Shown here piece by piece: positions 11,836 through 25,889 of a stretch of 34,500 nt of DNA (the first letter of the stretch is position 1; every line of letters starts with the position of its first letter). This stretch comes from a virus, in IMG/VR virus record IMGVR_UViG_3300032116_000727, positions 1 to 34,500 of that record; one strand, 5' to 3'. The notes under the pieces were generated by a model. That model did not search any database, was not told where the DNA came from, and saw nothing but the letters and a program-made list of their open reading frames with translations. A program made the position numbers and the translations under genes.

Positions 11836-14022
11836 TTATGCACCGACTTCTGTAAAGTTAATAGAAGAACGAGCAGCAACAAAGTTAAGAGTGATAAAGT
11901 TGATAGAACGATTTGGTTTAACGAAGATGTCAGCGACAAACTCGTTACGATCAATCACTTCACCAGTGTTGTTGGACTCATCGCACTTAACAACGAAATC
12001 AGTAATACCACGACGACCTTGTACATCACGGAGGAATGGCTCTACTAAATTGCGGAACTGTGCACGAGTAAATGTATCGTTAAATTCGAACAATTGAAAT
12101 TTAGCAGCAGTTGCAATCGCTTTTTCCATAACAATGAATAGACGACGCACGTTGATACGATCAAAAGCAGATGGCTTTGCTAACATAGTTTTATCGCCAA
12201 AGAGAACAGTGCCTTCTCCTGGGAAAGAAACAACTGGGTTAATACCTGCTTTATACAATGTATCACGTTGTGTTTTGTTAGGATTAACAGCTAAACGAAC
12301 AGTGCCTTTAATCTGTCCACGATTTAAACCACCAGGAGAGAACCATGGATCATTTGTATAATCTGTACGTGCACATAAACCTGCAATATCAGCATTTAAT
12401 GCAACATAACGATACTTGTCGTTATAGCGATCGTACTGATATTTGTAGCCAGAATCCATAACACCGTAAGAAGTGCTCTTTCCTACTGCTGTCTTGTATG
12501 CTATAATTTTATTAATTTCTGTAGAAGTTGAACCAACAATAGCATCACCACTACTTACATCTTCTGGAGAAATAAATCCTACGCAGTCTAAACGTGACTC
12601 GCAAATATTGCTTAGAATATAATTTGCTACAGTAGCTGATGCTTTGCCAGCTAAAACTAAACTAATATCATATAATTCAGCGTTTGAGAATAATTCAAAT
12701 GCCGTTTGTTTTTCACCATCAGTTAAAGCGTAGTCATCTGTACCACCAGATAGACTTCTAGTAACTGCAGCAACTAATGTTTTAAATGCAGTAGCAGCTG
12801 CTGGTTGACCCCATGGTGTACCAGCATTTAAATTGGTTGGGTGATCCATCCACCAGATCCACTCAGAAGAAGTATTAATTACATTTTTGTAATAGTTATT
12901 AGTTCCATCTGGTTTTTTAGCATCAGTTGCTTTAGAAGCAAATGCAAATTTTTCTAGAATAGCATTTTGTGTTCCAGAAATAATACCATCTTCATCAATA
13001 ACAATAATGTGAACTTCATCATTAGAGCCACCAACACTAGCTGCATAAACAGAAGTTCCTGGTGCACCATCAAATTCGTCTTTATAAGTCCACGTTGCAT
13101 ATGTTGCGCTATCTGCCATAGAAACTTTTAAAGAGTTACCTAAAGTTCCTGGATATTTTGCAGCAAACTCACCAACAATAGCAGAGCCATTTGAGTATGT
13201 ATTTAAATATGTTTCACCATTATTAATTTTTAAACCGATAGTAGTAGTTACTGTCGATGTTGCAGCAGCATTAGTACCAGATGGAGGCGCAGCAATTGTT
13301 ATAGTTGGCGCTACAGAATAACCAGTACCAGCGTTAGTAATATTAATTGCAGTAACTGTCGAGGCAGAAAGAGTAACAGTTGTAATAGTAGCACCAGTTC
13401 CATCACCTGTGATAGTAACAGTTGGAGTTGTTTTGTAACCAGAACCAGCATTAGTAACTGTTATACTAGTGATTGCACCACCTGCAATAGTAGCAGTAGC
13501 AGTAGCTTGAACTCCACCAGCAGCTGGAGCAGAAATTGCAACAGTAGCAGTAGTATAACCAGACATAGTTCCGCCAATAACAATAGAACTAATTCCACCA
13601 CCAGAAATTACAGAAGTAGCAGTAGCTTGAACTCCGCCATCTAAATCAGGAGCAGAAATAGTAACAGCAGGAGCAGCAGCAGTAGAAATATATCCGCTGC
13701 CAGCAGCAGTAATATTAATCGCAGCAATACCACCTGTAGCTGCGGCAACCGCATTCAAGTGTCCAGCGTCTGCACGAACTAGTAAAAGATTATTTGTATA
13801 TGATAGGAAGTTCGCTGCTGTAAAAAAAGAATTAAAATTGGAATCGTTTGGTTTTCCAAAACGACGAACCAACTCGTTTTCAGAAGCAACAGTAGTTGGC
13901 TCTAAAACTGGACCCCATTGAAAAGCGCCAGCAAAAGCACCAATTGAACTTGATACAGCTGGAACGATAGAGGTGAAATCTTTTTCTACGACTGCAACGC
14001 CTGGAGATAATTGAAACGGCAT
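11836..14022 (-). CDS. gp18: Tail sheath protein gp18 with inserted beta-repeat domain
   Basis: This 728-residue contractile sheath subunit has a family N-terminus (PFQLSPGVAVVEKDFTSIVP) and C-terminus (GRRGITDFVVKCDESNNT, NRSINFITLNFVAARSSINF). The C-terminal core includes NRGQIKGTVRLAVNP and ALRR-like INVRRLFIVMEKAI. T4 gp18 is 659 aa. Between LLLVRADAG (about 80) and GEFAAKYPGTLGNSLKV (about 284) lies an insertion at residues 98-262. It is built from four repeats of about 40 residues, each with a (G/S)GY turn followed by PTVTI-like strands and a GG-ATAT segment. It probably projects from the outside of the sheath, where T4 gp18 has its variable protruding domains. AAGGAG precedes the ATG. 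Confidence 0.95.
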   Translation of the reverse strand: MPFQLSPGVAVVEKDFTSIVPAVSSSIGAFAGAFQWGPVLEPTTVASENELVRRFGKPNDSNFNSFFTAANFLSYTNNLLLVRADAGHLNAVAAATGGIAAINITAAGSGYISTAAAPAVTISAPDLDGGVQATATSVISGGGISSIVIGGTMSGYTTATVAISAPAAGGVQATATATIAGGAITSITVTNAGSGYKTTPTVTITGDGTGATITTVTLSASTVTAINITNAGTGYSVAPTITIAAPPSGTNAAATSTVTTTIGLKINNGETYLNTYSNGSAIVGEFAAKYPGTLGNSLKVSMADSATYATWTYKDEFDGAPGTSVYAASVGGSNDEVHIIVIDEDGIISGTQNAILEKFAFASKATDAKKPDGTNNYYKNVINTSSEWIWWMDHPTNLNAGTPWGQPAAATAFKTLVAAVTRSLSGGTDDYALTDGEKQTAFELFSNAELYDISLVLAGKASATVANYILSNICESRLDCVGFISPEDVSSGDAIVGSTSTEINKIIAYKTAVGKSTSYGVMDSGYKYQYDRYNDKYRYVALNADIAGLCARTDYTNDPWFSPGGLNRGQIKGTVRLAVNPNKTQRDTLYKAGINPVVSFPGEGTVLFGDKTMLAKPSAFDRINVRRLFIVMEKAIATAAKFQLFEFNDTFTRAQFRNLVEPFLRDVQGRRGITDFVVKCDESNNTGEVIDRNEFVADIFVKPNRSINFITLNFVAARSSINFTEVGA
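13237..13731 (-). repeat. Four GSGY-type repeats inserted in gp18
   Basis: Encoded repeat units begin at about residues 101, 144, 184 and 223. Each contains an I-x-(I/V)-T-x-A-G-S-G-Y-like turn, a P-x-(V/I)-T-I strand and a small-residue ATA stretch. Two related units occur in gp14. The copies have diverged too far for a recent slippage duplication. Confidence 0.8.
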
Positions 14023-14076
14023 TGTAATTCTCCTTGTTTAATAAGTTTAACTTTAGACAAAACTAATGTCTACTGT

Positions 14077-14084
14077 TTATTTAG
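14077..14084 (-). promoter_or_regulatory. Possible late promoter (CTAAATAA) for gp18
   Basis: The minus strand reads CTAAATAA within the 77-base gap between gp17 and gp18, about 55 bases before gp18. It differs from TATAAATA, but the gap has no better candidate and gp18 needs strong late expression. Confidence 0.45.
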
Positions 14085-14099
14085 TTTTTATACAATTTC

Positions 14100-15677
14100 T
14101 CAAAAGTTTAATGGGGGTTTTTCTGGTTTTCCATCTTCAAAAAACCCAAACGGGGTTAATTCTTCTTCGATCGCTTGCATTTGTTTTTTGTACATCGACT
14201 CTCTTAAATTAACATTATTTAAATCTTTAAAATAAGAATTTGAAGTTAACCACCCAAATAAAACTAGAGGCATAACTAAGTCATCGTGATATCCTTCATC
14301 GGCTTCATACGATCCTTTTTTCTCAATAAAAGTTGATATTTCAGAGATTGTATCAGCGTCGTTTATAATTAGTTTATTTTCCTCAACTAGTGCCTTAAAA
14401 TTATGGCACCCAATTCTTTTAATTTTTTTATCTGTATTTACACCTAACTGAGTTTTACCACCACCGAATCCACCAGAGACTGTTTGTCCCATGTTCATTC
14501 TTGTAACCATCAATATATTCTCATATTCTAACTCAGAATATAAAATATGAGCGACCTGTTCAGAGACATTTATCTCTAAAAGAACCCAAGCATTATTATA
14601 ATCTTTTCCAACTTTATAGATAACATTTGGGTATAGCAAAGGACTTATTTCATTATTTCTGTACTTCGCTACAATTCTATAAGGAACTTCAGTAATATCG
14701 ACTACTTGAAAAGCAGAATAGTCGCCTCCTACTCCTTTGGCTATATCTGCAACCAGACAATATGTATGACCAGATTGCGGTTGAACATATACGTCTAAAC
14801 CATCTTTTTGATATACAATAACATCTGGGCTCATTTTTGATATACAATCAGCTCTAACCAATGTTAAAGACGAACCTAAAAAATTACATAAAACTTCCTG
14901 TGTAAATTTTAGCTCACCTAAGGCTGCCTTTTGCTCAGCTGCCCATTCTTCAGTACGCCCAGGAATTTCCCAATATGGAATGAATAGTGGAACAAATCCA
15001 TTTCTTCCTTTTTCAGCGTCTGTCCAAAACTTCCAAAAATGATTATATCCTAGTGGCGTAGATGAAAGTAGAATTTTTGTAGTTTGTCCAGCAGAAATTG
15101 TAGGATAGACTGATGTGAAAAATTCTTCTGCCACATTATTTGGAATAATTGCAGCCTCATCGACATACAATAAGTTTACCGATTTACCACGAATACCTGA
15201 TTTTCCTGTGGCTGCAGTAAAAACTTTAGAACCATTTTCTAATTCTATATCACCTTTATTCCAAGTTAAAACTCCCTGTTGCATCCACTTGGGTAACATC
15301 TCATACATAATCTGATAACGATCTAAAACTTCTCGAGCAGCGTCTTTTTTGTTCGCTAGAATCGCTACATTTTTATTAGGTTGGAATACCGTATACCAAA
15401 GAATATAAGCTGCAGAAGTTGTAGTTTTACCCTGCTGTCGCCCTTCCATTAGAATAACACGACGATTATTATGAATAACATCTATCTTCTTTTTTTGGCA
15501 ATCATATAATTTAAATAATTGCAATCCGTGATCTAATGTAACAATATAACAATAGTTCTCAATAAAATATGTTGGGTCTTGAGAACATTTTAAATATTCT
15601 TTAATGTCATCGGGTGTAAACTCAACACTAACCCCAGCTGCTTTTAAGTTGGAGTTTGAATTATAAATTTCTGCCAT
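14100..15677 (-). CDS. gp17: Terminase large subunit gp17
   Basis: This is the DNA-packaging motor ATPase and headful nuclease, 525 residues (T4 gp17 is 610). Visible motifs are Walker A MEGRQQGKTTTS (about 77-88), Walker B LLYVDEAA (about 169-176), the coupling motif LLSSTP (about 203-208), and the RNase-H-fold nuclease metal site VADIAKGVGGDYSA (Asp311) with further acidic residues downstream, e.g. YHDDLV near residue 480. The N-terminus contains the YFIENYCYIVTLDHGL adenine-binding region typical of the family. It starts two bases after gp15 ends. The shorter length is due mainly to the termini; the catalytic motifs are all intact. Confidence 0.97.
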   Translation of the reverse strand: MAEIYNSNSNLKAAGVSVEFTPDDIKEYLKCSQDPTYFIENYCYIVTLDHGLQLFKLYDCQKKKIDVIHNNRRVILMEGRQQGKTTTSAAYILWYTVFQPNKNVAILANKKDAAREVLDRYQIMYEMLPKWMQQGVLTWNKGDIELENGSKVFTAATGKSGIRGKSVNLLYVDEAAIIPNNVAEEFFTSVYPTISAGQTTKILLSSTPLGYNHFWKFWTDAEKGRNGFVPLFIPYWEIPGRTEEWAAEQKAALGELKFTQEVLCNFLGSSLTLVRADCISKMSPDVIVYQKDGLDVYVQPQSGHTYCLVADIAKGVGGDYSAFQVVDITEVPYRIVAKYRNNEISPLLYPNVIYKVGKDYNNAWVLLEINVSEQVAHILYSELEYENILMVTRMNMGQTVSGGFGGGKTQLGVNTDKKIKRIGCHNFKALVEENKLIINDADTISEISTFIEKKGSYEADEGYHDDLVMPLVLFGWLTSNSYFKDLNNVNLRESMYKKQMQAIEEELTPFGFFEDGKPEKPPLNF

Positions 15678-15679
15678 AT

Positions 15680-16426
15680 TTAAAAATTATCTTCCCATGA
15701 CTCACTAGTAACAGTAGCGTTGGTTACATCTCCCTCTGCTGTAAAAATTCTATTTGGACTACTAAAATCTTCATTTTGACCGACGTTAGCGTTAACTGTA
15801 TCGATAACATTACGATTAGAAATTGGACCAAATAAATTAGTTTTCATTTGAAAATTTAATGTGTGAGTAACAAATCTTCGAGTTTGAAAATCTCCATCAT
15901 ATTCATCCATTACTGATACACTATTTAACACAACAGGCACATCTACTTTTAGATTCATGTCTGGAATTACATTAACAGTTAAAGTGTACTCTGGAGTAAA
16001 TGTAGGTAAAATTTGTTCAATAATTTGAAGACCATCTTCTTGTGTTTTAGTTAAAACGTAAAGAGATAAATCTATATTATAAGGAACAGGGCTATAAACA
16101 GTAGAAACTGCACCTGCTCCCTCACCACATTTAATTTGTTGCATACGATTTAATTTACGAGAATTATCATATGTATAAGCAATTATCTCAAATGACATTC
16201 TAGGCAAAGAAACATAAGTATGATTTTCTAAATTAGGATCTTGATCTAAGCGAACTAACCATTTTTCTTTTGGAGCATATGCCAAAGGAACTTGCAATCT
16301 TTGTGCAGTAGTTCCCGAGACTGAATCGCCTTCTTTTCTATCAATATAGATATCACTAAACAATCTCCCAAACGCAACTATAGATTTGCGAATTATTCCG
16401 TGATAGAAAACATTATTATTGAGCAT
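15680..16426 (-). CDS. gp15: Proximal tail sheath stabiliser gp15
   Basis: This 248-residue protein matches the T4 gp15 pattern: N-terminal NNNVFYHGIIRKSIVAFGRLFSDI, then RLQVPLAYAPKEKWLVRL, LPRMSFEIIAYTYD, IDLSLYVLTKTQEDGLQIIEQILPTF (about 118-145) and VSVMDEYDGDFQTRR. In T4, gp15 forms a hexamer at the top of the contractile tail and joins it to the neck. It is coupled to gp14 by a TAATG overlap and lies in the usual order before gp17. Confidence 0.93.
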   Translation of the reverse strand: MLNNNVFYHGIIRKSIVAFGRLFSDIYIDRKEGDSVSGTTAQRLQVPLAYAPKEKWLVRLDQDPNLENHTYVSLPRMSFEIIAYTYDNSRKLNRMQQIKCGEGAGAVSTVYSPVPYNIDLSLYVLTKTQEDGLQIIEQILPTFTPEYTLTVNVIPDMNLKVDVPVVLNSVSVMDEYDGDFQTRRFVTHTLNFQMKTNLFGPISNRNVIDTVNANVGQNEDFSSPNRIFTAEGDVTNATVTSESWEDNF

Positions 16427-17343
16427 TACTTAATCTCACCAAAAGGATTAGTTTCACTAAACAGTATATCAACTGCTTCTGATTTAAATTTATTATTGTC
16501 AGCAAAAGATTCTACTTTATCTACATTTGCTTCGATAGTCGCAGTAGCTGTTGCTGTAACACCCCCAGCTGGAGGATTTGAAAATGTTAAAGAAGGCGCA
16601 GAAGTATATCCCGTGCCTGGATTGGTTATGTCAACACGTATAACTTTACCAGCATTTGTACCTGTACCTAAAACTGCAGTAGCTGCTGCTCCAGTGCCAT
16701 TAGCAGAAATAAAAGTTATTGTTGGAGCAGTTGTATAACCAGAACCTCGATTTGTGACTGCAATAGATACAACTTCACCATATTTGGATCTTGTCGTATT
16801 TGTAGTGAATGATTTTAATGTTTCAAATTCATCTATCGAAGAAATACCAGTATCAATGCGTTCAGAGCTATATTGGAACAGCTCAACTTGCAATTTGTAA
16901 ACATAAAGTTTACCTAGTTGATAAAATGGATCTTGGTGTTGAACAAATTTAATTTCAAACAAACCTTTTGATAGAGGGAAATAGATTAGATCTCCCTCAT
17001 TCGGTCTAGTAGGGATAATTGTTTGCCCATAACGACCAATTAACTGCTCCCATCTTCTTCTTGCCACAACTAAAGTGGCAGATTGTTCCATCATTAAACC
17101 AAATTTTTGAATAAATGCGCCTTGGCCAGAAAATGAATCTACATCTTCAAAGTACATTTCAATAGGAAAAGAAGATTTAAATTGACTTAATCGATCTTCT
17201 CCTAAAATTTCGTCTTTTGAAACTAATGTTCTTGGGATATAGAAAAACTCTTGACCATAAATCTTTAATGATTCTATGATTATATCTTCAATCAGGTACT
17301 GTTCGTTTTTAGTTCCCTGTGTAAAATAAACATTGGTAGGCAT
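16426..17343 (-). CDS. gp14: Neck protein gp14 with two inserted GSGY repeats
   Basis: This 305-residue protein (T4 gp14 is 256) belongs to the neck, which closes the filled head and docks the tail. It resembles T4 gp14 in IIIESLKIYGQEFFYIPR (about 21-38), GEDRLSQF, SGQGAFIQKFG, RPNEGDLIYFPLSKGLFEI (about 113-131) and DPFYQLGKLYVYKL. The C-terminal FSETNPFGEIK corresponds to T4 NSPFNPD-like endings. Residues 190-273 are an insertion of two GSGY-type repeats (NRGSGYTTAPTITF and NPGTGYTSAPSLTF). They match the repeats in the gp18 insertion and account for the extra length. Confidence 0.93.
   Translation of the reverse strand: MPTNVYFTQGTKNEQYLIEDIIIESLKIYGQEFFYIPRTLVSKDEILGEDRLSQFKSSFPIEMYFEDVDSFSGQGAFIQKFGLMMEQSATLVVARRRWEQLIGRYGQTIIPTRPNEGDLIYFPLSKGLFEIKFVQHQDPFYQLGKLYVYKLQVELFQYSSERIDTGISSIDEFETLKSFTTNTTRSKYGEVVSIAVTNRGSGYTTAPTITFISANGTGAAATAVLGTGTNAGKVIRVDITNPGTGYTSAPSLTFSNPPAGGVTATATATIEANVDKVESFADNNKFKSEAVDILFSETNPFGEIK
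16525..16776 (-). repeat. Two GSGY-type repeats inserted in gp14
   Basis: Two units of about 40 residues (VVSIAVTNRGSGY and VIRVDITNPGTGY, each followed by a P-T/S-I/L-T-F strand and an Ala/Thr-rich tail) lie between the conserved body of gp14 and its conserved C-terminal end. They are the same type as the four units in gp18. Confidence 0.8.
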
Positions 17344-17345
17344 TA

Positions 17346-18305
17346 TTATCCTAAGAAAAAATCAAGTGGCGCAGATTTATTTTGAAGTTCGTCTTCTAAT
17401 TCTTTAATTTCTGTAGTAGATTCCTGATATAATTTATCCCCATCTAATGTAACCCCACCTGGAAGTTGTAATCCACTGAACTTTTTAAGATTTGTAGCCC
17501 ATTGTTTTTTAAATAAAGCAGTAACATAATGTTTTAACCATGGCTCATTCCAAACTTTAGTCCATGTTGTTGGATCCATCGCACGATAACTTTGGATAAT
17601 AATGTAATCACCAAGAATAAAATCAGTAGCCCAATTGGCGTCAAGATATAATCTATTTGATAAACGATTAAATCTAAATGATTGATGACCATTTAATTCT
17701 AAATCTAAAAGAGCTAAGTGCCCCATTACGGTTTTGTAATAAATTAATGAAGTGGATGTTAGATCGTATAGGTCATTTAAACGTAATTGATATTGTAAAT
17801 CAAAAATATTTTTAGATGACGATGCTTGCCCTATACTTAATATTTTAGTAACACCCCATACATAATCTGGTATCTCAATATATTTGTTATCATATTCTCT
17901 TAATGTTATTGATACTGTAGTAGCTGTTTGGTTTGAAGAAGATGACGTAATAGCCTCTCCAGCAGTAAATGTTCCAGTTATATCTTTTACTAATAATAAT
18001 GTTCCAGAAGAAACACGTGTAGACTCTCTAACTACTTTTGCTGTAGCACCAGATGTTACACCAGTAATAGTTTCAGCTAGTTGATAATTACCAGCAACAG
18101 AAGTAGTTAAAACGATTTCAGAAGCACGAATAGGATGCTTCATATAAATTTGTTCAATACCCTCATAATGATAAAGACGCCAGTAATCTAGAGCTTCATC
18201 AATACGATCCTCTAATTGATCATCATCTACGTTAATTTCAAGTACAGGAGCACCTAACGCTCTTAAACAATATTCTTTTAAAGTAGATCTAGAATTAACA
18301 GCCAT
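17346..18305 (-). CDS. gp13: Neck protein gp13
   Basis: This 319-residue protein has the pattern I associate with gp13 of marine T4-like phages: an N-terminal helical region RSTLKEYCLRALGAPVLEINVDDDQLEDRIDEALDYW interrupted by no gap, then YIEIPDYVWGVTKIL, NIFDLQYQLRLNDLYD, RFNRLSNRLYLDANW, and the C-terminal KKQWATNLKKFSGLQLPGGVTLDG. T4 gp13 is about 309 aa and forms the neck with gp14. Residues 68-136 (ETITGVTSGATAKVV to GTFTAGEAITSSSS) look like an inserted small beta module unrelated to the GSGY repeats. The start overlaps the preceding fibre gene by TAATG, and gp14 follows after 2 bases. Confidence 0.85.
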   Translation of the reverse strand: MAVNSRSTLKEYCLRALGAPVLEINVDDDQLEDRIDEALDYWRLYHYEGIEQIYMKHPIRASEIVLTTSVAGNYQLAETITGVTSGATAKVVRESTRVSSGTLLLVKDITGTFTAGEAITSSSSNQTATTVSITLREYDNKYIEIPDYVWGVTKILSIGQASSSKNIFDLQYQLRLNDLYDLTSTSLIYYKTVMGHLALLDLELNGHQSFRFNRLSNRLYLDANWATDFILGDYIIIQSYRAMDPTTWTKVWNEPWLKHYVTALFKKQWATNLKKFSGLQLPGGVTLDGDKLYQESTTEIKELEDELQNKSAPLDFFLG

Positions 18306-19930
18306 TAGAATTCATCTCCAAGAGCAAGACCAAGAGCAAGAACATCAGCACCACTAGGTGTATTACCATAAACTAGCCAAGAAGTTCCGTTGTAAATAAT
18401 ATCTACTTTGATTCCTGTATAATTTAATGCTACGTTAGATGCAGCATTATTAATTAAATTACCATTTCTACCTAAAATTAATGGATTAGATTGAAAATCT
18501 GCACCATCTACTACAGTAATCTGAGCACCAATAGATGGCGATGGTGGTAATGTTAATGTCCAACTACCACCTGACGTATTAGCAATAATAGATTCACCTA
18601 CGTTTGCTGACCAGTTTGCAGATTTGTTTAGCCATCCACCCGCTCCAGCTGTAAATGTTAAAGTTTTAGTAGAATTATCTGTTTGAATAGACATACCAGA
18701 ACCAGCCACAAATGTTAACGATTCTGTATTAGATGCAGCTGCTATAGTAGTTTGACCAGCCACAACGATATTTTTAAATATAAACTGACTAGAACCTTTA
18801 TCAGTATTTTCTATTGTGATAGCAGTAGATCCATTATAAGAAGTTCCAGATAATCCAGTGCTAATTGTTAACGCAGGAAGATTATTACCTAGTGTAACTC
18901 CTGATATTGTATTGGCAGCAAGTTTAGAAACAGCAATTGCAGCTGATGCATTAATATCAGCATTTACAATTGTTCCATCTGCAATCATAGCAGATGTAAC
19001 TGTTCCAGTATCACTAGAGCCTACTAACGTACCAGTAGCTGGAACAGTTACAGAGGAGCCACCAGCAGGGGCAGTAATTGTTAAATTACCAGTGTTAAGA
19101 GTTATAGTTCTACCGCCATTATTAACACCAGTACCACCATAAGTTGAATCGACAACTGTTCCTTGCCAAGTACCAGTAGCTATTGTACCTACAGAAGTTA
19201 AAGAAGAACTAACTACGCCAGATCCAAGAGTAGTTGCATTTAGAACAGAATTACCAGCAATATAATATGCTTTGCCAGTTAATAAATTTAAATGTTCAGA
19301 AGATGTCCAGGCATCAGTTAAGTCTACCCAGTTAAATGTTTTATCAGTAGTGCCTTTTAGTGTGATACCACCGCCATCAGCACTAACATCTGTTGGCGAA
19401 GCTGTAGAACCTAATTCAATGTTTTTATCATCTACAGATAAAGTAGTAGAATTTAAAGTAGTTGTAGTTCCATTAACTGTTAAATCTCCAGTAACAACTA
19501 AATCTTTATTAACAGTTACTGTTCCGCCATCATTATCACCAAGATTAATATTAGTTGTAGAACCTGCTGCTCCACCAGTACCAATATTAATAGTTTTAGT
19601 ATTACCAGAAGCAACCGCTCCAGTAGAAATATTTGTAGTAGATGACGAAGTGCTAGCATAACCTATTGTTATCGTAGTAGGAGTAGCAAACGCAGCAAAA
19701 GTCGCATCATTAGAATCTACACTTGTTCCAATAATTGGTGTAGTTAAAGTTTTATTTGTAAAAGTTTCAGTGCCAGCTAGAGTAGCTAGTGTGCCAGTAG
19801 CAGTAGGTAGGGTTAATGTAGCACCATTATTATAAATGCCACTGCCTGTTAAGTCCATGTTATCAGCGACTGCAAGCTCCCTTACAGTTTCTGAAACTGC
19901 GTCAACAATTAAAGGAAAACGATTTGCCAT
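18305..19930 (-). CDS. Tail-fibre-like structural protein, 541 aa
   Basis: This is a Thr/Ser/Gly/Ala-rich protein of short beta repeats, typical of phage fibres. Residues 36-66 hold a GTLATLAG-x-ETFTNKTLTTP unit. Residues 150-201 hold the cassette VNGTTTTLNSTTLSVDDKN..IELGS..ADGGGITLKGTTDKTFNW, which recurs in the 840-aa fibre. The C-terminal region (WTLTLPPSPSIGAQITVVDG, NPLILGRNGNLINN) resembles the end domain of many phage fibres. It lies between another fibre gene and gp13, joined to both by TAATG overlaps, so it is translated with neck proteins. Whether it forms neck whiskers/collar fibres or tail fibres is open. Confidence 0.8.
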   Translation of the reverse strand: MANRFPLIVDAVSETVRELAVADNMDLTGSGIYNNGATLTLPTATGTLATLAGTETFTNKTLTTPIIGTSVDSNDATFAAFATPTTITIGYASTSSSTTNISTGAVASGNTKTINIGTGGAAGSTTNINLGDNDGGTVTVNKDLVVTGDLTVNGTTTTLNSTTLSVDDKNIELGSTASPTDVSADGGGITLKGTTDKTFNWVDLTDAWTSSEHLNLLTGKAYYIAGNSVLNATTLGSGVVSSSLTSVGTIATGTWQGTVVDSTYGGTGVNNGGRTITLNTGNLTITAPAGGSSVTVPATGTLVGSSDTGTVTSAMIADGTIVNADINASAAIAVSKLAANTISGVTLGNNLPALTISTGLSGTSYNGSTAITIENTDKGSSQFIFKNIVVAGQTTIAAASNTESLTFVAGSGMSIQTDNSTKTLTFTAGAGGWLNKSANWSANVGESIIANTSGGSWTLTLPPSPSIGAQITVVDGADFQSNPLILGRNGNLINNAASNVALNYTGIKVDIIYNGTSWLVYGNTPSGADVLALGLALGDEF

Positions 19931-22452
19931 TAAACTAGTACCCCTATATTTTGTGTTCTACCATAGACTGTTAATTGTCCACTAGAAATAACAATTGGAG
20001 TAGCACTACTTGGAGCCACATCACCTCTCTTATATACTAAGAATTTAGATGACGAGGCAGTACTCTCAATAGTAATTGTGTTAGCATCAGTCCTTGTAAT
20101 ATTTATGTTAGATCCAGCAGCAAGTTTTACATCATCAGTACTTGCGTTAGAATCAGTTAAACGAATATTCGCACCACCAGCTACGGTTTCTGCTGATATG
20201 CTATATGTTGTATTTGAAACAGATTCACTTGCAGTACTATAAGATTGAACATGACCATATGTATCAAATGTTAATCCTGTAACATATGTTCTACTGCTTG
20301 CAGTTAAATTACTAACAGAAGAAGTATCTGCGTGGGCTACTGTAAAAGATGTTCCCTCACCAGCTGCACCAGTTACAGTTATTCCATTACCTTGAATAAC
20401 TTCTGAAGCATAATTTCCTGTAGTATCAACACCGAGAGCAACAGAGTTTGCTGCAATTGTAGCTGTTAATGTTCCACCAGCTAGATTAGTTAAAGTTAAT
20501 GATCCAGTTAAATCTCCACCTAATGTAATAGTTGGAGAAATTCCAGTTATAGTTGGAGAAACTAAAGTTTTATTTGTTAAACTTTGTGTGCCACTGGTAG
20601 TAACAATTGGAACTAGATTATGAGTTAATGTTCCAGAAATAATATTGTAATCACCATTACCTTGAGTTCCATTACCACCACTAGCATTAATTCTTACATC
20701 AAATGCTACAGGTGTCGAACCTGTGTTATAATTAATAGTGGCAGTAGAACCTGTTGCAGAATAAGTTGTTGTTCCGCTTAATGTAACTGCAGATAAAGTT
20801 TTATTTGTAAGAGTAGCAGTACCAGTTTCTGTTACTAATGTATGACCGCCTCCACCAACTGGTAAAAGTGTAGTATTAGTGCTATGAGTAAACGCTATGC
20901 CAGACGCATGCGTTTGCATAGAAGTCTGATTTAAAAATAAACTTGAACCAGAAAGATATAAATCTTTAAATTTGTATGTAGAAGAACCTAGATCATAAGT
21001 TGCATCAGCACTTGGAATTAAACTGCCAGATATTGTAGCTCCAGCAATTGTCTTATTTGTTAATGTTTGTGTATCTGAAGAACCAACAACATCACCAGTG
21101 GGTAAAGATTTGCCTAAAACTTGTGTCGCAGAAAGAACTGTTGTTCCATTTATTTTATAAGTTTTACCTGATGCTAAATCAAAATTTTCTGACGATGTCC
21201 AAGAACTTGATGCTTGAACCCAATTAAATGTTTTATCAGTAGTACCTTTTAAGGTAATACCACCGCCATCAGCTGTATTATCTGTAGGAGTTCCAGTAGA
21301 ACCTAGTTCTAAATTTTTATCATCAACGGTAACTGTTGTAGAATTTACAGTTGTTGTAGTTCCATTAACAATTAAATTTCCACCAACAGTTAAATTTCCT
21401 GTCGTAGTAAGAGCAGCAAATGTAGGTGAATCGTTTGATCCAATTCCAAGATCTGGTGTATAACTTGTTCCAGCAGAAGTGCTAACAGTTAGAACACCAG
21501 TTGCAGAGTCAAAAGAAACTCCAGAAACTCCAGCAACTGCAGTAGTGCTCGCAGCTGTAATTCTACCCTGTGCGTCTACAGTAATAACTGGAACTGCAGA
21601 AGAAGTACCATATTGCCCTGGAGTTACTGCAGTATTATCTAAATTAACAGTTACTGTATCTGTAGTAACAGAAGTAGATAAACCAGTACCACCAGAAATA
21701 GTAAATGTATCAGTTGCTAACGCTACGCTAGTATTAGAGCCAGAATCTCCAGCTACTGTTAATGTTGTTGAAATTGATGCTGTACCAGCTGCAGTTAAAC
21801 GTCCTTGCGCATCAACAGTAAATGTTGGTATTGCTGTTGCTGATCCATAAGATCCAGCAGTTACTGTAGTATTATCAAGATTTAATGTTACAGTATTATT
21901 TGTTACAGCAGAAGATAAACCAGTACCACCAGAAACAGTTAATGTATCTGTTAGCATGCTAACAGAATCAGTTCCAGTATCACCAGCAATGTTTAAACTA
22001 GAGGCTACAGATGCAATAGTAGCTGCAGTTATTTGACCTTGTGCATTAATTGTTAGTACAGGAATCTCAGTAGCAGATCCATAAGAAGCAGCAGTTACTC
22101 CTGTATTTGATAAAGCAATTGTTACTGCGCCTCCACCATTATATGATGTTCCAGATAGACCAGTACCAATTGTTAAAGAGTTTGTAGCTGTGGCAGTAAT
22201 TGTTGTAGAGCCACCAAGAGAAACAGTCTGTCCATTAATAGTTATAGAACTGTTAGCTAATTTTGCGTTTAATATTGCACCATTAGCTAAATTGGCAAGA
22301 TCTTTTCTAAGAATTTCATAACCACCAGGAGTAGTGCCGTCATGAAGTCTTAATGCATAATTGGTAGTATCAACTGTGAGTTCAGCATTTACACCAGTAA
22401 ATGATGTATGTTGAGCTGCTGTACCTCTTCTAAGTTGAATTTGAATCGCCAT
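19930..22452 (-). CDS. Long tail fibre-like protein, 840 aa, with tandem ~78-residue repeats
   Basis: The N-terminus QIQLRRGTAAQHTSFTG with LTVDTTNYALRLHDG is the anchor module also found in the three glycine-rich adhesins. Residues about 118-300 contain tandem repeats of roughly 78 residues (x-V-T-A-x-S-Y-G-S-A-T-x-I-P, V-D-A-Q-G-x-x-T-A-A, ISGGTGLS). Further on is the VDDKN..LELGS..ADGGGITLKG cassette shared with the 541-aa fibre, and several TLTNKT units. The protein is almost entirely beta-prone, has no enzyme motif, and is probably a trimeric fibre shaft. It begins 10 bases after the 84-residue gene. Confidence 0.82.
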   Translation of the reverse strand: MAIQIQLRRGTAAQHTSFTGVNAELTVDTTNYALRLHDGTTPGGYEILRKDLANLANGAILNAKLANSSITINGQTVSLGGSTTITATATNSLTIGTGLSGTSYNGGGAVTIALSNTGVTAASYGSATEIPVLTINAQGQITAATIASVASSLNIAGDTGTDSVSMLTDTLTVSGGTGLSSAVTNNTVTLNLDNTTVTAGSYGSATAIPTFTVDAQGRLTAAGTASISTTLTVAGDSGSNTSVALATDTFTISGGTGLSTSVTTDTVTVNLDNTAVTPGQYGTSSAVPVITVDAQGRITAASTTAVAGVSGVSFDSATGVLTVSTSAGTSYTPDLGIGSNDSPTFAALTTTGNLTVGGNLIVNGTTTTVNSTTVTVDDKNLELGSTGTPTDNTADGGGITLKGTTDKTFNWVQASSSWTSSENFDLASGKTYKINGTTVLSATQVLGKSLPTGDVVGSSDTQTLTNKTIAGATISGSLIPSADATYDLGSSTYKFKDLYLSGSSLFLNQTSMQTHASGIAFTHSTNTTLLPVGGGGHTLVTETGTATLTNKTLSAVTLSGTTTYSATGSTATINYNTGSTPVAFDVRINASGGNGTQGNGDYNIISGTLTHNLVPIVTTSGTQSLTNKTLVSPTITGISPTITLGGDLTGSLTLTNLAGGTLTATIAANSVALGVDTTGNYASEVIQGNGITVTGAAGEGTSFTVAHADTSSVSNLTASSRTYVTGLTFDTYGHVQSYSTASESVSNTTYSISAETVAGGANIRLTDSNASTDDVKLAAGSNINITRTDANTITIESTASSSKFLVYKRGDVAPSSATPIVISSGQLTVYGRTQNIGVLV

Positions 22453-22461
22453 TGTTATTCC

Positions 22462-22716
22462 TTACGCTATGGTTCCACCATCTACGAGTGCAACTGCATT
22501 TATTGATTCGGTTATAAATCCAGCATCTAAGTAAGGAGATCCGCTTGATCCACCTCCACCAGCACCAGCTGAAAATGACTCTATTTGATTGTTGGTATTT
22601 TTAAAGTATAGTTTTCCATCAGCGTAGTTAATTGCTAACTCGCCATATTCTAAGTCTGTGGTTAATGGAACTTTAGCCGCAACAGACGACTTTTTAAGTA
22701 AAACTTTATTTGCCAT
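22462..22716 (-). CDS. Small fibre-type protein, 84 aa
   Basis: This is a short protein with the N-terminal fibre anchor pattern (LLKKSSVAAKVPLTTDLEYGELAINYADGKLYFKN) followed by a glycine-rich linker and a short C-terminal end. The anchor resembles modules at the start of long phage fibres, so this may be a stand-alone anchor or cap protein in the fibre assembly. It may instead be the remnant of a longer fibre. It lies between two very long fibre genes; a hairpin separates it from the upstream one. Confidence 0.65.
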   Translation of the reverse strand: MANKVLLKKSSVAAKVPLTTDLEYGELAINYADGKLYFKNTNNQIESFSAGAGGGGSSGSPYLDAGFITESINAVALVDGGTIA

Positions 22717-22747
22717 TCTATACCTTAAAAAAGGAATTCACAAAGAT

Positions 22748-22767
22748 AAGGGAGTAAAAACTCCCTT
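22748..22767 (-). terminator. Hairpin between two fibre genes, possible weak terminator
   Basis: An 8-bp perfect stem (AAGGGAGT/ACTCCCTT) with a 4-base loop lies 11 bases after the stop of the 1036-aa fibre gene. On the minus strand it is followed by ATCTTTG rather than a clear T-run, so termination would be partial. The T-run is better on the opposite strand. Confidence 0.55.
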
Positions 22768-22778
22768 TTACTTTCTAT

Positions 22779-25700
22779 TTAGTATGTACCACCATCAATG
22801 TTAAATCCATCTAAAGTACTAGAACTTGCGCCAGCACCTGTTAGATTTGCTGATAAAGTAACATTTCCAGTAACACCTAATGTTCCAGATGCACTAAGAT
22901 TAGTAAATGCACCAGTGCTTGCAGTAGTAGAACCAATTGGTGTATTATTAATAGAACCACCACTAATAGAAGATCCAGAGAATGTTTTATTAGTGAATGT
23001 TTCAACACCTGCCAAGGTAGCTAATGTACCAGTAGTTGGTAATGTTACATTAGTAGCTGCAGTTGTAGTTAATGTTAATGAATAAGCACCAGCAGTTGTA
23101 AATGCGCCTGCTGTTGTAATATTACCACCAAGAGTTATGGTGTTAGAACCATTATTAACTCCAGTGCCACCATATGTTGGATTGATAATATTAGCATTCC
23201 ACGCACCAGTAGTAATTGTGCCTAGTGTGGTAATTGTAGATTGGCCGATATAAGTTGATGCGATATCGATAGCATCAGCAGTAACAGTAATTCTGTCGGC
23301 AGTGCCACCAATATCGATAACACCAGAAGTATACGTTAAACCATTACCAGCGACCGAAGATTTTAATTGTAATGCATCAGACGCAATTTCAATACCACCA
23401 TTAGCTGCAACTACAACATCTAACTGATTACCAGTTTTAGTGATAGCATCTCCAGCAATAATTTGCCCTGCGCCAGAGAATTGAGTAAAGATTAATGGAT
23501 CTGTTCCAACAACTTGTGGATTATCAGAAGTGATAACGAAGCCAGCATCAGCATTTACTGTACCTTCTTCAACGAAGAAGAATACTCCAGCTGTAACTTC
23601 ATAAGGTTCATCAAAGTCAGTAGCACGTGACCACGCTCCAGCTGCAACAACATAGACACCATTTTGCGAAGATGTTGTTTGATTTTTAGCCAGAACACGA
23701 TTACCAACAACTAACGATACGCCATCAACTGTCTGAACACCAGACAGTGTTAGATTTGCAGTAGAAGCAGCACGAACAGATTGTTTTACATCTAGACCAG
23801 AACGAGCAGCATCAACATATGATTTAGTTGCAGCGTCTTGTGGATTTACTGGATCAGCAAGATCAGTAATTCTATTGGTTGTTCCTAGAGAAACATTACT
23901 ACTAAATGTAGAAGTTCCAGAAACTGCAAAGGTTCCACCAACACCAGTATTACCTGTTTGGGCATCTACTGTAAATTTATTAGTATTAACTGCCAAATCA
24001 TCAGCAATTCCAACAGTTCCACTAAATGTAGTATTACCTGTTACACCTAATGTTCCACTTACTGATACATTGCCAGTTAAAGTAGAAGCACCAGTAACAC
24101 TTAATGTACCAGCAACAGCAGTATTTCCTGTAGTAGCGTCTATTGTAAATTTATTAGTATTAACGCTTAAATTGCCTGTAACACCAAGAGTAGAAGTTAC
24201 TGTTAAATCAGAATTTACCGAAACTGAACCAGTTCCATTTGGATCTAATGTAATATTGCCATTAGTATCTGTAGAAGAAATTGTATTACCATCGATACGA
24301 ATATTATCAACATCAAGTTGAGTAATGCCAGCTAAAGATGTCGAAGTAGCACCAAGAGAAACAGTTGTAGAACCAAAAGTTACAGAACTGTTAGTAAGAG
24401 ATGCATTACCAATATTGGTTAAGGTATTAGTAGAACCACTAATAGATTTATTTGTTAATGTATCGGTAGTCGCACGACCAACTAATTGGTCAGTTGCAGC
24501 TGGTAGGGTTAATGTGCCAGAAGCAGTTGCCGATGCAACAACTTGTGTTTCACCAGTAGTACCACCAAAATAAGCACCAGTAGCAGTAGTACGAAGGCTA
24601 GTAATAGTTGGACTGCTGGATAAAACAACATTAGCACCACTACCAACATAAGAACTAATAGAGTTGCCTTGAATTTGAAACACATTACCAGTAGCAACTG
24701 CAATATCAATTGTTTTATTGGTAAGTGTATCTGTAGTCGCACGACCAACTAAAGTATCTGTGCTTGTTGGTAATGTTAATGTTCCAGTATTTACAATTGT
24801 AGAAATAACTGGAGAAGTTAAAGTCTTATTGGTAAGAGTTTGTGTGCCAGTAAGAGTCGCTACAGTGCTATCGATAGCAATTGTAGATGTATTACCAACA
24901 TCACTATTAGTAACAGTAATACCAGTGCCACCAGTAACTGCTCCACCAACTGTATCGTAAATGTATTCAGCGAGAGTATCTGCACCAATATTTACGCCAC
25001 CATTAAATGTAGCTGCTCCAGTAAAAGTAGAAGTGCTGCTGGCAGATAGAGTTGTAAAAGCGCCAGTGCTCGGAGTTGTATTACCAATTGGTGTATTATT
25101 AATACTAGAGAAAGTTGCTGATTGCGCAGTGATGGCAGAACCAACATACAATGAACCAGCAATACCAACTCCACCATCAACAACTAATGCACCTGTAGTA
25201 GTGCTAGAAGAAGCAGTAGTTGCATTAATATTAACAGTTGTAATTTTAGAATCAATGTCTAGACTATCAGTGTCTAGAGACATTGCATTAGTGCCATTAG
25301 TTACAAATGTTAATGTGTCGTCAGAAGCACCTGGAGAAGATTCGGCTGAAATGTATGTTAAACCATCAACAGATTTAACACCACCTAATGAACCCCAAAC
25401 TGTTCCAGAATAACCTTCGAAAGAAGATGTATCAGTATTATAACGAACAGTTCCTTGAATAGCTGGTCCACGTTGAGCAGTGGTACCAACTGGAATTACT
25501 AAACCATTTGTTCCAACAATCTCAACATATCCAGTTCCATTAGGATCTAGTGTAATGTTACCATTTGTATTTGTAGAACTTAATGTATTTCCATTTAAAT
25601 CTAAATTATCAACTTTTAAATTATCTAATTTAGAATCTGAATCTACCACCAAAGCAGAATTTGCTGTTAAAGTTCCTTTGGTATGATCCAACATATCGGT

Positions 25701-25889
25701 AAAGAATTTACCACCGATAATAACATGATTGGCTGCATTACCAGATGTTTCACTACCCATACCAATGTATAGGCGATCACCACCATTTGAGCCATTATCT
25801 GCTAATGCTGAATACGCTAGTTCACCTGCTCCTAGCGTAGCTGGGTTACCAGATGTAGACGATCTTTTAATTCTTATAATTGACGCCAT
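22779..25889 (-). CDS. Long tail fibre protein, 1036 aa
   Basis: This is the largest complete gene in the window. The N-terminal IRIKRSSTSGNPATLGAGELAYS module (about 1-75) is a common fibre anchor in marine T4-like phages. A unit with NGNT(L/I)SST(N/D)TNGNITLDPNGTG occurs twice, near residue 100 and near 530. TLTNKT and NNTPIG(N/S)TT.STGAFT units also recur at both ends. Around residues 676-780 is a different segment (QDAATKSYVDAARSGLDVK, then RVLAKNQTTSSQNGVYVV), familiar from other phage fibres. The C-terminus ends in SSTLDGFNIDGGTY. No enzymatic domain is visible. It is likely a trimeric, beta-rich adhesion fibre. Confidence 0.85.
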   Translation of the reverse strand: MASIIRIKRSSTSGNPATLGAGELAYSALADNGSNGGDRLYIGMGSETSGNAANHVIIGGKFFTDMLDHTKGTLTANSALVVDSDSKLDNLKVDNLDLNGNTLSSTNTNGNITLDPNGTGYVEIVGTNGLVIPVGTTAQRGPAIQGTVRYNTDTSSFEGYSGTVWGSLGGVKSVDGLTYISAESSPGASDDTLTFVTNGTNAMSLDTDSLDIDSKITTVNINATTASSSTTTGALVVDGGVGIAGSLYVGSAITAQSATFSSINNTPIGNTTPSTGAFTTLSASSTSTFTGAATFNGGVNIGADTLAEYIYDTVGGAVTGGTGITVTNSDVGNTSTIAIDSTVATLTGTQTLTNKTLTSPVISTIVNTGTLTLPTSTDTLVGRATTDTLTNKTIDIAVATGNVFQIQGNSISSYVGSGANVVLSSSPTITSLRTTATGAYFGGTTGETQVVASATASGTLTLPAATDQLVGRATTDTLTNKSISGSTNTLTNIGNASLTNSSVTFGSTTVSLGATSTSLAGITQLDVDNIRIDGNTISSTDTNGNITLDPNGTGSVSVNSDLTVTSTLGVTGNLSVNTNKFTIDATTGNTAVAGTLSVTGASTLTGNVSVSGTLGVTGNTTFSGTVGIADDLAVNTNKFTVDAQTGNTGVGGTFAVSGTSTFSSNVSLGTTNRITDLADPVNPQDAATKSYVDAARSGLDVKQSVRAASTANLTLSGVQTVDGVSLVVGNRVLAKNQTTSSQNGVYVVAAGAWSRATDFDEPYEVTAGVFFFVEEGTVNADAGFVITSDNPQVVGTDPLIFTQFSGAGQIIAGDAITKTGNQLDVVVAANGGIEIASDALQLKSSVAGNGLTYTSGVIDIGGTADRITVTADAIDIASTYIGQSTITTLGTITTGAWNANIINPTYGGTGVNNGSNTITLGGNITTAGAFTTAGAYSLTLTTTAATNVTLPTTGTLATLAGVETFTNKTFSGSSISGGSINNTPIGSTTASTGAFTNLSASGTLGVTGNVTLSANLTGAGASSSTLDGFNIDGGTY

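Follow-up and report, generated by a model that had tools for sequence, protein, structure and literature searches.

The tail sheath protein gp18 and the neck protein gp14 encoded on a 34,500-nucleotide stretch of viral DNA (IMG/VR record IMGVR_UViG_3300032116_000727, positions 1 to 34,500; hereafter the window) carry units of one and the same repeat, here called the GSGY repeat after its turn motif. On balance, we favor a reading in which the repeat is a mobile surface domain, its pairs resemble domain I of T4 gp18, and its role may be in docking. The shared repeat, its strand content, its slot, its variability and its independent gain and loss were all computed directly, and the GSGY domain looks like an exchangeable surface part, not a unique coating. 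According to this reading, an independently folding domain would be reused by many virion proteins: in gp18, two pairs would fill the slot where T4 has a single domain I and would point outward from the sheath, while gp14 would carry a single pair in its C-terminal arm, close to where the neck meets the tail. The pairs might then dock tail or neck fibers held alongside the tail, a role known for domain I in T4.

The repeats of gp14 and gp18 are homologous

Both genes lie in a T4-type block on the minus strand of the window, together with gp13, gp15, gp17, gp19 and the portal gene. gp18 (728 aa, 11836..14022) matches the tail sheath family PHROG 23 (E 1.5e-125), and its predicted model superposes on T4 gp18 (Protein Data Bank (PDB) entry 3foa, Z 24.7). 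gp14 (305 aa, 16426..17343), the neck or head closure protein, matches PHROG 460 (E 9.2e-87). A hidden Markov model (HMM) of the repeat, about 40 residues long with a consensus of about G.VtsItVTn.GSGYtsAPtVtitgg.G.gAtATAvi, places units in gp18 at residues 96-143 (unit 1, 13594..13737, 35.1 bits), 141-183 (unit 2, 13474..13602, 26.2 bits), 181-221 (unit 3, 13360..13482, 42.7 bits) and 220-262 (unit 4, 13237..13365, 42.8 bits), and in gp14 at residues 188-230 (unit 1, 16654..16782, 54.3 bits) and 231-275 (unit 2, 16519..16653, 56.2 bits), all on the minus strand. None of the other window open reading frames tested with this HMM gave a meaningful score.

A preliminary description of this DNA, made from its letters, had proposed four units of about 40 residues in gp18 and two in gp14, and the HMM recovers these, at 96-262 and 188-275. 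The xxGSGY turn that it assigned to every unit is degenerate in gp18 unit 2 (TMSGY), and its span of 13237-16776 also takes in the repeat-free genes gp17 and gp15 (the tail sheath stabilizer, 15680..16426, minus strand; Pfam T4-gp15_tss, E 1.5e-70). Its view that the module interrupts conserved family bodies was borne out: Pfam finds the sheath body both before and after the gp18 array, with Phage_sheath_1, Phage_sheath_1C and Gp18_domIII_N all present, and window gp14 meets PF11649 (T4_neck-protein) at residues 10-182 (E 1.5e-32).

A homology search relates the gp14 protein to the gp18 array (E 1.7e-12). When unit HMMs were built without the window's own copies, gp18 scored 58.3 bits with the gp14-only HMM and gp14 scored 60.6 bits with the gp18-only HMM; the highest scores among 1000 shuffles were 0.1 and 3.8, respectively. 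These reciprocal scores uphold the proposal of one module common to both proteins, and the shuffles rule out chance or composition as the cause of the likeness. The six window units are mutually only 56-74% identical in DNA and thus do not stem from a fresh duplication. Orthologous unit positions are the most alike across genomes, and gp14 and gp18 units from the same genome are as similar as those from different genomes, which together rule out recent copying or gene conversion between the two genes. Mean pairwise identity falls from 88-89% in the gp18 core to 56% in its array, and from 88% in the gp14 body to 58% in its pair, as expected of a surface part.

The repeats fold in pairs that resemble T4 gp18 domain I

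AlphaFold models of gp14 and gp18 were run on alignments of 28 and 34 relatives. In both proteins they predict three strands per unit and six per pair, with a predicted local distance difference test (pLDDT) of about 85-94; in gp14, the strands span 189-198, 208-212 and 220-226 in unit 1, and 234-241, 251-254 and 265-272 in unit 2. With three confident strands in each unit, the pair would make a six-stranded domain. The gp14 body was modeled at a pLDDT of about 30-45, too poor for placing the pair on the neck. Copy numbers of 0, 2 and 4 dominate among gp14 and gp18, which supports the pair as the building block, and three unrelated sheath proteins, with 2, 2 and 4 units, agree with it. Four gp18 of the window clade score three units, unit 1 falling under the cut-off though its motif is present, and the 74 gp14 of P-SSM2-like cyanophages score four units in 69 cases, five in four and six in one. 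Collectively, these data fit a working unit that is a pair of ~40-residue repeats, forming one predicted six-stranded beta domain of ~85 residues.

A second, unrelated module (GTLGGTGTITGY...TYKVS) was seen exactly between units 2 and 3, that is, between the pairs, in 13/13 gp18 that carry one (L028, L036, L041, L047, L048, L054, L058, L062-L065, L074 and L076), a position that also fits the pair as building block. Where the GSGY array is absent, this module occurs at a later gp18 site; L009, L021, L026, L035, L044, L051 and L052 are listed for that site.

T4 gp18 domain I (PDB 3foa and 3fo8) comprises residues 98-188 and consists of a six-stranded barrel and a helix (PMC3004832). In phmmer and MAFFT alignments, the window array starts at gp18 residue ~96-98, matching the start of domain I at 98; it enters after residue ~97, inside domain II, as domain I does in T4. 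The idea that the pair equals domain I came from sequence, ahead of the structural search. In that search, residues 192-270 of the gp14 model aligned to 99-186 of T4 gp18 (3foa) over 75 residues, with an rmsd of 3.0 and a Z of 5.2, a value under 8 that by itself can reflect a common arrangement. T4 gp18 was the sole row with a Z of at least 5, the next rows falling outside the repeats. The end points of this match set the gp14 motif G200-SGY opposite T4 G107-SNY (GSNY, 107-110). A Foldseek search of the gp14 model against the PDB gave nothing significant, and the T4 match comes from the second structural search only.

Profile-profile comparison of the pair with domain I aligned both motifs without offset and scored 18.6, against a maximum of 16.8 in 200 column-shuffled controls. 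When T4-type gp18 sequences were searched with the pair HMM, its best placements in many of them fell at the start of domain I. A gp14-centered profile failed the same kind of control (13/200 shuffles as high), and comparisons of shallow sets with T4 domain I gave probabilities of 0.6-2.5%. Domain I shares with the GSGY pair its site in the sheath protein, its six strands and its two motifs, GSN(Y/W) in T4; it differs in its added alpha helix, and the window has two domains in tandem, made from shorter (~40 aa) units. We conclude that the pair quite probably has the fold of T4 domain I, which is well supported though unproven; its membership of the domain I family is likewise unproven.

The preliminary description had taken the gp18 array for an insertion in an otherwise ordinary sheath protein. 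A simply foreign insertion is not supported, since T4 has domain I at that place and no solved structure matches the gp14 pair better than domain I does; the counter-evidence that the description had named, a T4 homolog of the array at this gp18 site, is there in part, as domain I. We find it most plausible that the "insertion" is domain I itself, doubled and diverged. The suggestion that the repeats decorate the outside of the particle is supported for gp18, whose array lies where T4 carries an exterior domain, and the gp18 pairs are likely exposed on the sheath. It is weaker for gp14, whose body was modeled at low confidence and whose arm, the likely holder of the pair, binds gp15 in T4.

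A candidate role in fiber docking

In T4, gp18 domain I protrudes from the sheath and binds the retracted long tail fibers, and the gp18 mutations G106S, S175F and A178V inhibit fiber retraction (PMC3004832). G, S and A occur at these positions only in a numbering without the initiator methionine. In that numbering, G106S hits the first glycine of GSNY, and S175F and A178V hit two residues in SSGLAA, which in the profile alignment faces GxxATATA in the second unit. It is mainly because these mutations fall on matching motifs that we favor docking of virion parts over host binding, although the argument is an inference across a distant relation. We therefore propose, tentatively and at somewhat less than even odds, that other components of the same virion, chiefly tail or neck fibers folded along the tail, may dock on these domains.

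The gp14 pair and the neck-tail joint

At the gp14 site, alignment showed only a short stretch in T4, phiM12, DLP6 and Cr30, and a different sequence in HTVC008M, Melnitz and P-RSM4. As judged from these alignments, the pair interrupts the C-terminal arm of gp14 and replaces nothing recognizable. In T4, the C-terminal part of gp14 (178-256) lacks order as long as the neck is free, and it binds gp15 after tail joining (PMC12270204). The gp14 pair would thus probably lie on the outside of the neck-tail joint.

Other features of this region were observed alongside. Residues 61-135 of gp13 (17901-18125) form an extra segment with another motif (GE.ITG..SGATA), which matches the tail fiber families phrog_693 and phrog_9851 and is absent from gp13 of T4, Mosig, HTVC008M and P-SSM2. 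In the window, as in other Kyanoviridae, gp13 is clearly shorter at T4 residues 190-239, the fibritin-binding domain III (domain definition from PMC12270204). Directly upstream of gp13, in the position of T4 fibritin (wac)/gp12, stand three large low-complexity structural genes (18305-25889), none of which matched a fibritin family. gp15 and gp17 adjoin directly (15677-15680), with no gene for gp16 (small terminase) between them, unlike in T4.

gp14 and gp18 arrays come and go independently

In the window clade, gp14 has two units in 66/66 complete genes, and complete gp18 genes have 4, 3, 2 and 0 units in 30, 4, 1 and 4 cases. The module is present in both proteins in 29/33 clade members with both genes complete. 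P-SSM2-like cyanophages carry these repeats at the corresponding gp14 site, though usually four units instead of two (4-6 units in 74/74), and have none in gp18 (0/3). In HTVC008M-like phages, units were found in 0/74 gp14 and 0/26 gp18. Six array-less gp18 (L009, L026, L035, L044, L051 and L052) form one clade (100/100) among array-bearing relatives, the surrounding nodes being only moderately supported, and the simplest reading is that this clade cleanly lost its entire gp18 array. The gp14 and gp18 arrays are gained and lost independently.

These data bear on the proposal, made in the preliminary description, that the copies on gp14 and gp18 act together as one continuous neck-and-tail coat. 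The joint presence of the module in the window and in 29/33 clade members agrees with such a coat, and the expected co-occurrence holds to that extent; it fails in P-SSM2-like phages, which have the module in gp14 only, and in HTVC008M-like phages. Six phages of the window clade keep gp14 units without gp18 units, same-genome copies are no closer than different-genome copies, so that no exchange within genomes is seen, and in the virion gp15 lies between gp14 and gp18 (PMC3004832, PMC12270204). A continuous surface is not supported, and we regard a joint coat as very improbable.

The same distribution speaks to the idea that the module is a dispensable ornament or spacer, which folds by itself, spreads between virion genes because it leaves assembly undisturbed, and gives bulk or protection without a specific partner. 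The clean loss of the gp18 array, the low constraint on the sequence and the use of the module by many unrelated virion proteins all suit this idea, and the additional sheath domains of T4 are supposed to be non-essential for sheath formation (PMC9230969). Set against it is the gp14 pair, whose retention in every complete clade gene and whose nearly invariant motif residues indicate that it is under selection. We consider a mere ornament unlikely.

The repeat occurs widely in other virion proteins

GSGY units are also present in the sheath proteins of the unrelated, non-T4 44-kb myophages Persinger, FoX5 and KA2-1 (L109 2560-3993, L110 2560-3999 and L111 2320-3996), which have two, two and four, as one or two pairs. 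Their position, immediately ahead of the Phage_sheath_1 match, is a loop of the sheath core other than the one used in window gp18, which points to independent acquisition. Units were further found in many PHROG virion families and in predicted cyanophage fiber, structural and baseplate hub proteins. Among solved structures, pair profile positions 2-83 of 86 match residues 446-530 of Dpo31 (E 3.3e-4), part of the D3* insert in the tailspike of marine podovirus Carin-1 (PDB 28lx). This insert, with its sequence similarity to the whole pair, protrudes from a conserved body, but in a beta-helix depolymerase, not in a neck or sheath protein; its authors call it Ig-like, and it is soluble and monomeric alone (PMC13317679). 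Further sequence matches in the PDB, to chains of BurrH and of the proteasome, were dismissed as chance hits.

The repeat had no convincing match to curated Ig-like or repeat families up to E 10 in Pfam and E 1 in NCBIfam. A tblastn search with the consensus repeat gave no matches, probably owing to low-complexity filtering, and searching the literature for phage GSGY repeats turned up no paper that describes them. Outer add-on domains of sheath proteins are already known, among them Ig-like accessory domains, which are likewise exchangeable beta domains facing outward from a sheath core that is conserved (PMC9230969); the GSGY repeat differs in having neither a Pfam or NCBIfam model nor an Ig-family match in the scans run.

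GSGY-like repeats also occur in bacterial proteins with signal-like N-termini. A Marinilabiliales protein (L304 2017-5106) with a lipoprotein-like N-terminus consists largely of them, and a short Verrucomicrobiae protein (L307 2923-3738) with a signal-like N-terminus has several.

Such occurrences bring in adhesion to hosts or particles, in which the domains would weakly bind polysaccharide or other surfaces so that the tail rests on cells, a role that has been proposed for phage Ig-like domains. In its favor are the same fold predicted in cyanophage tail fibers, the repeats in surface or secreted bacterial proteins, and the proposal of sheath add-on domains as adhesion aids (PMC9230969). On the other hand, the isolated Dpo31 domain had no depolymerase activity (PMC13317679), and the conserved unit positions, mostly Gly, Pro, Ala and the motif Tyr, look structural. 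Adhesion is in our view about as unlikely as the ornament, although both are to be taken seriously beside docking.

Discussion

Several results weigh against a mobile domain I-like module with a docking role. The structure models rest on shallow alignments, and the match to T4 gp18 stays under Z 8. The hhalign probability of the pair against domain I was just 2.9% with deeper sets, and the Pfam model of domain I, PF22639 (Gp18_dom_I), matches T4 at 96-188 but not window gp18 or its array. The pair rule is not strict, with 5/74 P-SSM2-like gp14 at five or six units, four of them odd. No fiber of this phage was identified as the docking partner, six relatives live without the gp18 array, and the Dpo31 authors report distant similarity of the insert to sugar-binding domains (PMC13317679).

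Sheath proteins carry variable outer domains of unclear origin. What is new here is that the form is doubled, that neck and sheath both use it, and that a repeat absent from the domain catalogs is linked to T4 domain I. It is possible, though doubtful, that the GSGY pair and T4 domain I make up one uncatalogued family, a standard fiber-docking part on sheath, neck, baseplate and fiber proteins. If so, the T4 fiber-retraction mutants would be mutants of the GSGY module's own conserved motifs, and annotation pipelines would gain a missing domain model. Should T4 domain I be a diverged pair from a module also present in neck, baseplate and fiber proteins, an old fiber-retraction phenotype could be explained across the whole family. 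A laboratory phage would then allow tests of what this repeat, common to many proteins of marine phages, does.
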